Assembly: GCA_029778535.1 (NCBI GenBank)
Contig: JAKOQB010000143.1
Coordinates: 186,001 to 250,000 of the forward strand
Origin: Pseudomonadota bacterium
GTDB taxonomy: Bacteria > Pseudomonadota > Gammaproteobacteria > Burkholderiales > Burkholderiaceae_F
Length of the DNA: 64,000 nucleotides
Reading direction: 5' to 3'
Below are positions 5,945-7,633 of this stretch, piece after piece; the stretch's first letter is position 1, and each line of letters opens with the position of its first letter. The translations under genes were made by a program, and so were the position numbers. Under the pieces are notes generated by a model. It saw only the letters and a list, made by a program, of their open reading frames with translations, did not search any database and had not been told where the DNA came from.

Positions 5945-5975
5945 AAAAAAACCCGCTGGCAGCGCGCGCGGGTTT
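5945..5975 (-). terminator. Intrinsic terminator/attenuator immediately before metZ
   Basis: On the minus strand AAACCCGC (5968-5975) pairs with GCGGGTTT (5949-5956) and the hairpin ends in a run of seven T that touches the metZ ATG. It lies 19 nt downstream of the SAM-II aptamer. It could also end purF transcripts. Its 5' arm contains CCCGC, complementary to GCGGG inside the aptamer (about 6018-6022), which gives a possible antiterminator pairing; that switch is inference. Confidence 0.75.
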
Positions 5976-5993
5976 CGGTGAACGACTCCCTCG

Positions 5994-6044
5994 CTTTAGC
6001 TGCATTTGTTACGCGCCCGCAAGCTGAGCTCAAATCGGCGCGAC
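5994..6044 (-). promoter_or_regulatory. SAM-II riboswitch aptamer upstream of metZ
   Basis: The reverse strand matches the SAM-II (SAM-alpha) architecture: P1 arms TCGCGCC (6037-6043) and GGCGCG (6012-6017); pseudoknot strands GATTTG (6031-6036) and CAAAT (6004-6008); and the conserved 3' AGCTAAA (5995-6001). It closely resembles the metX SAM-II RNA of known structure, as I recall it. Position upstream of a homocysteine-forming enzyme fits the known SAM-II regulon. Binding of SAM should reduce metZ expression; here the output appears to be the adjacent terminator. Confidence 0.88.
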
Positions 6045-6098
6045 GGACGAATGCTAGGGGCAGCGGCGCTGCCGGTCAAGTTGATGCTCAGTTGACGC

Positions 6099-7619
6099 TC
6101 AGACGTCGACCGGTTCGATCGCGAGCGAAAGCTGGTTGCGCGGACCTTCTTCCTGTGGCGCGGGTCGGGTGCGCGCGGCTTCGACGCGATCGAGATACTC
6201 GGGCGTCACGTCGCCCGTGATGTAGCGGCCGTCGAAACACGACGCGTCGAAGTAGGTCAGCCGCGGATTGCAGTCAGTCACCGCGCGTTTCAGATCTTCG
6301 ATGCGCTGGTAGATCAGCGCGTCGGCGCCGATCTCCAGCCGCACCTCCTCCTCCGTGCGCCCGGCCGCGATCAGTTCAGCGCGCGTCGGCATGTCGATGC
6401 CGTAGACGTTCGGGTAGCGCACCGGCGGCGCCGCCGAGGCCACAATCACGCGCCTGGCGCCGGCGTCGCGCGCCATCTGCACGATCTCGCGGATCGTCGT
6501 GCCGCGCACGATCGAGTCGTCGACCAGCAGCACGCTCCTGCCCTTGAATTCGACGCCGACCGTGTTCAGCTTCTGTCGCACCGATCGGGCGCGCACGGCC
6601 TGCCCCGGCATGATGAAAGTGCGTCCGATGTAGCGGTTCTTGATGAACCCTTCCCGATAACTCATGCCCAGCTTGGTCGCCAGCTGCATCGCCGCCGGCC
6701 GGCTCGAATCGGGAATCGGCATCACGACGTCGATGCTCCCCGTCGGCACGCGCGCGGCGACCTGATCGGCGAGGTACTCGCCGAGCCGCAGGCGCGCGCC
6801 GTACACCGACACGCCGTCCATCACGGAATCGGGCCGCGCCAGATACACGTATTCGAAGATGCACGGATTCAGGCTCGGGTTCTGCGCGCATTGACGGCTG
6901 AAGAAGCGGCCGTCGAGGTCGACGAAGATCGCCTCGCCCGGCGCGACGTCGCGCACCAATCGGAACCCGAGGCCGTCGAGCGCGACCGATTCCGACGCCA
7001 CCATGTATTCGGTGCCCTGATCGGTCTCGTGCACACCGAAGCACAGCGGCCGGATGCCGAACGGGTCGCGAAACGCCAGCAATCCGTAGCCGGCGATCTG
7101 CGCCACGACCGCGTACGAACCGCGCACGCGCCGGTGCACGCCGCTCACCGCGCGGAAGATCGCATCGGGATCGAGCGACAGCCGCTCGGTGGCGAGCTGC
7201 AGTTCGTGCGCCAGCACGTTCAGCAGCACTTCGGAATCGGAGTTGGTGTTGATGTGGCGGCGATCGATGCGGAACATCTCGTCCTTGAGTTGTTCCCAAT
7301 TGGTCAGGTTGCCGTTGTGCGCGAGCGTGATGCCGAACGGCGCGTTCACGTAGAACGGCTGCGCCTCCTCCGAGTTCGACGCCGAACCCTGCGTCGGATA
7401 GCGGACCTGGGCGATGCCGGAATTGCCCGGCAGCGAGCGCATGTTGCGCGTGCGGAAAACGTCGCGCGCCAGGCCGTTGCCCTTGAACATGTGGAACGCG
7501 TTGCCGTTGGCGGTCGCGATCCCGGCCGCATCCTGCCCGCGATGCTGCAGAAGCTGCAGGGCGTCGTACAGCAGCTGGTTGACCGGCGAGGTCGCGACCA
7601 CGCCGACGATTCCGCACAT
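6099..7619 (-). CDS. purF: Amidophosphoribosyltransferase
   Basis: First committed enzyme of purine synthesis: PRPP plus glutamine give phosphoribosylamine. The protein starts MCGIVGVVATSP at the ATG 7617-7619 and is 506 residues, like the Escherichia coli enzyme. Cys2 is the Ntn-type glutaminase nucleophile, with no propeptide. Motifs seen: HNGNLTN and the NTNSDSEVLL glutaminase loop, GIRPLCFG, and the C-terminal PRPP loop VLLVDDSIVRGTT. Upstream open frame is GC-driven and not part of the protein. It is 14 nt downstream of cvpA, the classical cvpA-purF pair. Confidence 0.96.
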   Translation of the reverse strand: MCGIVGVVATSPVNQLLYDALQLLQHRGQDAAGIATANGNAFHMFKGNGLARDVFRTRNMRSLPGNSGIAQVRYPTQGSASNSEEAQPFYVNAPFGITLAHNGNLTNWEQLKDEMFRIDRRHINTNSDSEVLLNVLAHELQLATERLSLDPDAIFRAVSGVHRRVRGSYAVVAQIAGYGLLAFRDPFGIRPLCFGVHETDQGTEYMVASESVALDGLGFRLVRDVAPGEAIFVDLDGRFFSRQCAQNPSLNPCIFEYVYLARPDSVMDGVSVYGARLRLGEYLADQVAARVPTGSIDVVMPIPDSSRPAAMQLATKLGMSYREGFIKNRYIGRTFIMPGQAVRARSVRQKLNTVGVEFKGRSVLLVDDSIVRGTTIREIVQMARDAGARRVIVASAAPPVRYPNVYGIDMPTRAELIAAGRTEEEVRLEIGADALIYQRIEDLKRAVTDCNPRLTYFDASCFDGRYITGDVTPEYLDRVEAARTRPAPQEEGPRNQLSLAIEPVDV

Positions 7620-7633
7620 CCTCGATCCTCCCG

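Follow-up and report, generated by a model that had tools for sequence, protein, structure and literature searches.

A SAM-II riboswitch upstream of metZ, predicted to act by transcription termination through a terminator that adjoins the start codon

The leader of metZ, on the minus strand of the window (the whole 64,000-nucleotide stretch of DNA analysed here), contains an element that is, by its sequence, a SAM-II aptamer, followed by an intrinsic terminator whose U-run runs directly into the metZ start codon. Sequence comparison and folding make it highly probable that this riboswitch turns metZ off by transcription termination, with a predicted pairing between the aptamer core and the terminator serving to antiterminate. 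A more compact picture, which is put forward only tentatively, is that terminator, ribosome-binding region and start codon are fused in one hairpin and that the SAM-binding core is itself the antiterminator strand, such that a single refolding step would switch both the transcription and the translation of metZ without a separate Shine-Dalgarno sequence.

The Rfam SAM-II model (RF00521, SAM_alpha) aligns end to end with positions 6051-5979 (33.6 bits, E 6.5e-6 in a search of 501 bp with 4227 families), slightly below its gathering score of 36, and because of this a default Rfam scan at gathering score finds only a tRNA in the window and the element needs a permissive search. It is the sole strong RF00521 match in the 4.8-Mb source genome (E 1.4e-5). 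The low score seems to reflect the model itself, which was described from alpha-proteobacteria: an order-wide search gave matches at E <= 0.01 in 142 of 300 genomes, only 51 of them above the cut-off. A beta-type model (R1), built from 35 leaders that all lie outside the window's family, scores 76.3 bits on the aptamer (E 8.9e-19), the next best match reaching 12.5 bits. Across 35 relatives, four of the five P1 pairs carry compensatory changes and 98.9% of P1 cells are paired, while the pseudoknot P2 (P2a) is paired in 97% of cells and, being almost invariant, gives no covariation support; both helices are intact in the window. The ligand-binding core blocks GAUUU, UUGC and GCUAAA are all present, their invariance in 107 relatives being partly by construction, as those leaders were collected by these blocks, and the GCGGG of the aptamer is nearly invariant among relatives. 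The sequence-only reading had described a SAM-II aptamer complete in all core elements and had proposed the RF00521 search as a check, and both models bear the assignment out. Selective binding of SAM by the window RNA is expected on the strength of its sequence. An altered-ligand variant was also considered and set aside, the core positions being intact and the published spermidine variants deriving from SAM-I, not SAM-II.

Table 1. Features of the metZ leader and related elements (positions are those of the window unless another sequence is named).
Feature	Positions	Strand	Basis or remark
Putative sigma-70 promoter	6051..6079	minus	-35 TTGACC 6079-6074, 17-nt spacer, -10 TAGCAT 6056-6051
SAM-II aptamer GUCGCGCCGAUUUGAGCUCAGCUUGCGGGCGCGUAACAAAUGCAGCUAAAGCGAGGGAG	5986..6044	minus	RF00521 and family-excluded model R1
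Aptamer P1 strands	CGCGC 6042-6038, GCGCG 6016-6012	minus	
Aptamer pseudoknot strands	AUUU 6035-6032, AAAU 6007-6004	minus	
Conserved aptamer core AGCUAAA	6001-5995	minus	
Proposed antiterminator	5959..6003	minus	Best fold and own-versus-swapped pairing
Antiterminator pairs	GCAGC 6003-5999 : GCUGC 5963-5959	minus	
Antiterminator pairs	GCG 5994-5992 : CGC 5968-5966	minus	
Antiterminator pairs	GGG 5990-5988 : CCC 5972-5970	minus	
Intrinsic terminator, stem-loop GAAACCCGCGCGCGCUGCCAGCGGGUUUU + U7	5945..5976	minus	Hairpin 5976-5948; U7 5951-5945, partly in stem
metZ, O-succinylhomoserine sulfhydrylase, 396 aa	4754..5944	minus	ATG 5944-5942 directly after U-run
purF, amidophosphoribosyltransferase	6099..7625	minus	Gene upstream of leader; end nearest the start codon approximate
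metK SAM-II/V-like element	L217 1501-1584 = source genome C5:84616-84699		
Tandem SAM-II leaders	L034 1659, L013 1619, L203 230, L198, L177, L153, L037, L143		

The gap between purF and metZ reads, in the direction of transcription, promoter-like site, aptamer, spacer, hairpin, U7 and AUG. The name purF is read from the ORF sequence itself (MCGIVGVVATSPVNQ...), and a purF/metZ neighbourhood is known also in Burkholderia (PMC3521395). The metZ product lies above two curated cut-offs (NF006003, 646.6 bits with a cut-off of 522; TIGR01325, 556.3 bits with a cut-off of 510), which places the SAM-II element upstream of a methionine/SAM biosynthesis gene. A wrong metZ start codon was considered and set aside: the start position is kept in relatives, which share the place of the ATG before a conserved DTRAVRAG-like motif, and no in-frame ATG, GTG or TTG was found upstream of it. 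The putative promoter matches the consensus at 9 of 12 positions (0.1 such sites expected in shuffles of the region) and would start transcription at about position 6044, where the aptamer begins; promoter-like sites of at least 9/12 stand upstream of 53% of 146 relatives compared with 1% of shuffled sequence.

Between the aptamer and the ORF, as in a transcription-attenuating riboswitch, lies the intrinsic terminator. Its hairpin (GAAACCCGC..GCGGGUUUU) begins 18 nt after GCUAAA and has a folding energy of -14.1 kcal/mol, better than that of 194 of 200 shuffles, and the last base of U7 adjoins the ATG; sequence and folding thus agree with the terminator as it had been read from the letters. 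The built-in terminator scan of the window did not return this hairpin, probably because of its loop limit of 8, and our own terminator finder was used instead, which located a strong hairpin and U-run after the aptamer in 147 of the 162 SAM-II-like leaders that make up the order-wide comparative set. Promoter, aptamer, terminator and start codon are conserved together in many genera, and the metZ, metX and metK genes of the source genome all carry related elements.

For the cell, we infer termination, use of the antiterminator and an effect on translation along the following lines, with the dependence of termination on the ligand argued by homology. Without SAM, P1 would form and the 3' portion of the aptamer (GCAGCUAAAGCGAGGG, comprising the SAM-binding core and the pseudoknot 3' strand) would pair with the upstream half of the terminator, which would then be blocked, RNA polymerase reading on into metZ and GCGGGUUUUUUUAUG remaining single-stranded and open to the ribosome. 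With SAM plentiful, the pseudoknot would be locked and the core withdrawn, the terminator hairpin would form and the polymerase would stop within U7, immediately ahead of the ATG. In transcripts that slip through, translation would probably be reduced too, because the ribosome-landing site would be folded into the hairpin.

The predicted folds, from programs that ignore the pseudoknot and kinetics, are consistent with this scheme. The best fold of both the 87-nt and the 103-nt transcript is the antiterminator, with P1 kept, as is the ligand-free fold from the inferred start (-34.4 kcal/mol), in which the start-codon region (GCGGGUUUUUUUAUG) is wholly unpaired; in the terminator form GCGGG is buried. 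For the 105-nt leader the free best fold reaches -37.5 kcal/mol, compared with -32.0 kcal/mol for P1 plus terminator, and the two predicted forms are mutually exclusive. The antiterminator helix predicted for the window is not continuous but broken by internal loops. Its comparative signal is modest, and the p-values are nominal because the sequences are related. Pairing of each core with its own terminator gives -14.7 kcal/mol as against -12.7 kcal/mol after swapping in 130 leaders, where the p-value of 1.7e-10 is inflated by close relatives, and the preferred value comes from 57 divergent clusters, in which own pairing beats swapped pairing with p 0.0013 (p 0.0054 by pair probabilities). Core pairing probabilities also favour the own terminator: AAA reaches 0.24-0.35, against 0.09-0.16 for unrelated terminators, and GCG 0.68-0.72, against 0.43-0.48. 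Relatives show the core-to-terminator hairpin too, and their terminators often hold near-perfect complements of the core (UUUUAGCC opposite GGCUAAA in L019; CGCUUUAGC in L060 and L150). The energy of the whole core-to-terminator hairpin is no better than when the core is paired with unrelated GC-rich terminators (p 0.86).

The sequence-only reading had looked for the antiterminator elsewhere, in pairing of the terminator CCCGC with GCGGG of the aptamer, and the corresponding version of the same riboswitch, in which aptamer GCGGG/GGGCGCG is freed by the opening of P1, is unlikely. Such pairing would agree with the near invariance of the aptamer GCGGG and with the presence of CCCG in the terminator 5' half of 95% of leaders, compared with 11% of 570 unrelated terminators in the same DNA, a difference from which it follows that the terminator 5' arm is constrained; pairing with the core GCUAAAGCGNGG explains this enrichment at least as well. 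In the window, however, the GCGGG:CCCGC fold (-26.8 kcal/mol) costs 10.7 kcal/mol relative to the best fold, is also weaker than P1 plus terminator, and breaks P1, and among relatives the cognate partners pair no more favourably than swapped ones (p 0.92, and p 0.63 in the 57 divergent leaders). Published probing of a SAM-II aptamer, in which P1 is protected with or without SAM and P2 changes (PMC10907184), likewise speaks against the opening of P1 and fits, by analogy, an antiterminator that leaves P1 intact, the response to SAM lying in P2. The better-supported candidate, from folding and sequence comparison, is the pairing of GCAGCUAAAGCGAGGG with the terminator 5' half, which would free the start-codon region.

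It is quite improbable that control is mainly translational, with the hairpin beside the ATG, or the pseudoknot over GAGGGAG, blocking the ribosome and termination playing a minor part, although the ribosome site does coincide with the hairpin 3' arm. About twenty metZ/metX leaders, including many metZ leaders from the family of the window, have their ATG no more than about 5 bases from the U-run. Of 21 ATG-touching leaders, 7 have a Shine-Dalgarno core within the hairpin, either in its loop or on its 3' side (GAGGCGGGUUUUUUUAUG and AAAGGAUCGGGUUUUUUUAUG are examples), as against 3 of 88 distant-start leaders (Fisher p 3e-4); in L191 and L208, two of the 21, translation probably starts elsewhere than at this ATG. 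A Shine-Dalgarno sequence inside the SAM-II aptamer of S. meliloti metA acts over 74 nt (PMC9373788). Against this, in many relatives a considerable distance separates the equivalent terminator from the ATG, and some of these have an independent Shine-Dalgarno, so that termination is the function they share. The window's own ribosome signal is also very weak: there is no Shine-Dalgarno core in the gap between terminator and ATG, only a weak GGGU in the hairpin 3' arm, for which pairing to the 16S tail gives -4.1 kcal/mol. The earlier statement that a Shine-Dalgarno is lacking is literally right for this gap, but several relatives carry one inside the hairpin. Because this is frequent in ATG-touching relatives, the hairpin of this lineage may, in addition to its role in termination, also shut off the ribosome site, and it would by extension do so in the window itself. 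Very improbable is the absence of any working switch, that is, a decayed aptamer ahead of a constitutive terminator or attenuator. The RF00521 score just short of the gathering score would allow it, as would the global stability of the leader fold, which is not above that of shuffles (z 0.16) and was for this reason left out as evidence, but the intact core positions, the score with the family-excluded model and the joint conservation of the four components across genera argue against it.

Several related elements were observed in the comparative material. The Rfam family RF02424 (Bp2_287, 'Burkholderia sRNA') gives antisense matches of up to 196.9 bits to metZ leaders of Burkholderia, Paraburkholderia, Caballeronia and Pandoraea (L133 2762-2935, L110 2747-2923, L097 2734-2912, L122, L107, L096 and L062), and looks mis-stranded because reverse-complementing its consensus yields a SAM-II-like leader followed by a terminator; an earlier study (Khoo, 2012) had already mapped the Bp2_287 candidate to the region in front of metZ/metX and classed it as a cis element. 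It is like the window leader in its site upstream of metZ, its terminator and its SAM-II-like sequence, and differs in that the Rfam model lies on the antisense strand and that the Burkholderia leaders have an extra hairpin inside the aptamer. This putative SAM-II variant, whose extra hairpin (e.g. GGGGCAACCC, GGGGGAACUUCCCC, CCGGGCUCCGG) follows the P1 3' strand and precedes the GCUAAA core, was found in the metZ leaders L096-L133 and upstream of metX in the source genome (L002/L216), and has no RF00521 match listed at E 0.01. In the source-genome metX element (35.8 bits) the extra hairpin is accompanied by a terminator touching a possible GTG start, and just upstream of metK there is a weak SAM-II/SAM-V-like element (GAGTTAACGAACAACTTGCAGGGCGC...CAAATACTGCTAAAGCG; 21.1 bits, E 0.047). 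Several genomes have tandem leaders, in which a second SAM-II/V-like aptamer, itself lacking an obvious terminator, comes after SAM-II and its terminator; tandem SAM-II arrangements are already known (PMC9481103). In the metZ leader of L077, upstream of 1583, the 3' part of the aptamer is seemingly deleted (CGCGCCGATTTGAGCCACAGCTTGCGGGCGCGTAACCGACAACTTGGGCCGGGTTTTTTTATG), possibly through decay or as an assembly artefact.

Termination control at metZ, which the sequence-only reading had regarded as exceptional, is supported by the covariance models, by the frequency of terminators in the collected leaders and by published work, but it is not exceptional. Many SAM-II representatives carry terminators (Corbino, 2005; PMC1273637), and a survey (Barrick and Breaker, 2007; PMC2258182) gives SAM-II as the one class most often terminator-linked in alpha-/beta-proteobacteria, terminators being its usual platform there. 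The termination mode is not new, having precedents in that survey, in the 'metXZ element' of 2014 and in S. meliloti in 2022, and the arrangement is largely expected in this bacterial group. SAM-II has mainly been studied as an isolated aptamer that hides the ribosome site, with terminator-type examples hardly dissected, whereas most natural beta-proteobacterial SAM-II elements appear terminator-based. The comparative set supplies a concrete candidate antiterminator and reveals a compact arrangement with overlapping terminator, ribosome site and start codon, and it links three separate names, SAM-II, 'metXZ element' and Rfam Bp2_287, to one riboswitch family.

Compared with the original SAM-II element, found in front of metA in Agrobacterium (Corbino, 2005; PMC1273637), the window leader is alike in P1, pseudoknot and AGCUAAA core, in a promoter a few nucleotides upstream of P1 and in a terminator before a methionine gene, and differs in that its terminator touches the start codon; from the RF00521 type it departs in its beta-proteobacterial sequence style (GCGCCGAUUUGA..CAGCUUGCGGGCGC), with a score just under the Rfam cut-off. 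The metZ SAM-II of the alpha-proteobacterium S. meliloti yields a terminated sRNA (RZ) of ~100 nt that rises under high SAM (Scheuer, 2022; PMC9373788), and shares with the window the target gene, the succession of aptamer and intrinsic terminator and the sense of a termination OFF switch, contact with the start codon not being described in the passages covered. The class of 'dual transcription and translation attenuation' (PMC2258182) is similar in that a single platform acts on termination and on the ribosome site alike, although the text covered describes no terminator U-run touching the ATG. The beta-proteobacterial 'metXZ element' (Leyn, 2014; PMC4239095) was treated by its authors as novel, SAM_alpha being found only in alpha-proteobacteria, and a different antiterminator (regions 3 and 4), close to GCGGG:CCCGC, was suggested for it. 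As described there, the two elements are alike in the two-part pseudoknot, the consistent terminator and the place upstream of metX or metZ, and to judge from that text and from the matching genes and taxa, the 'metXZ element' is almost certainly the same RNA as the SAM-II of the window.
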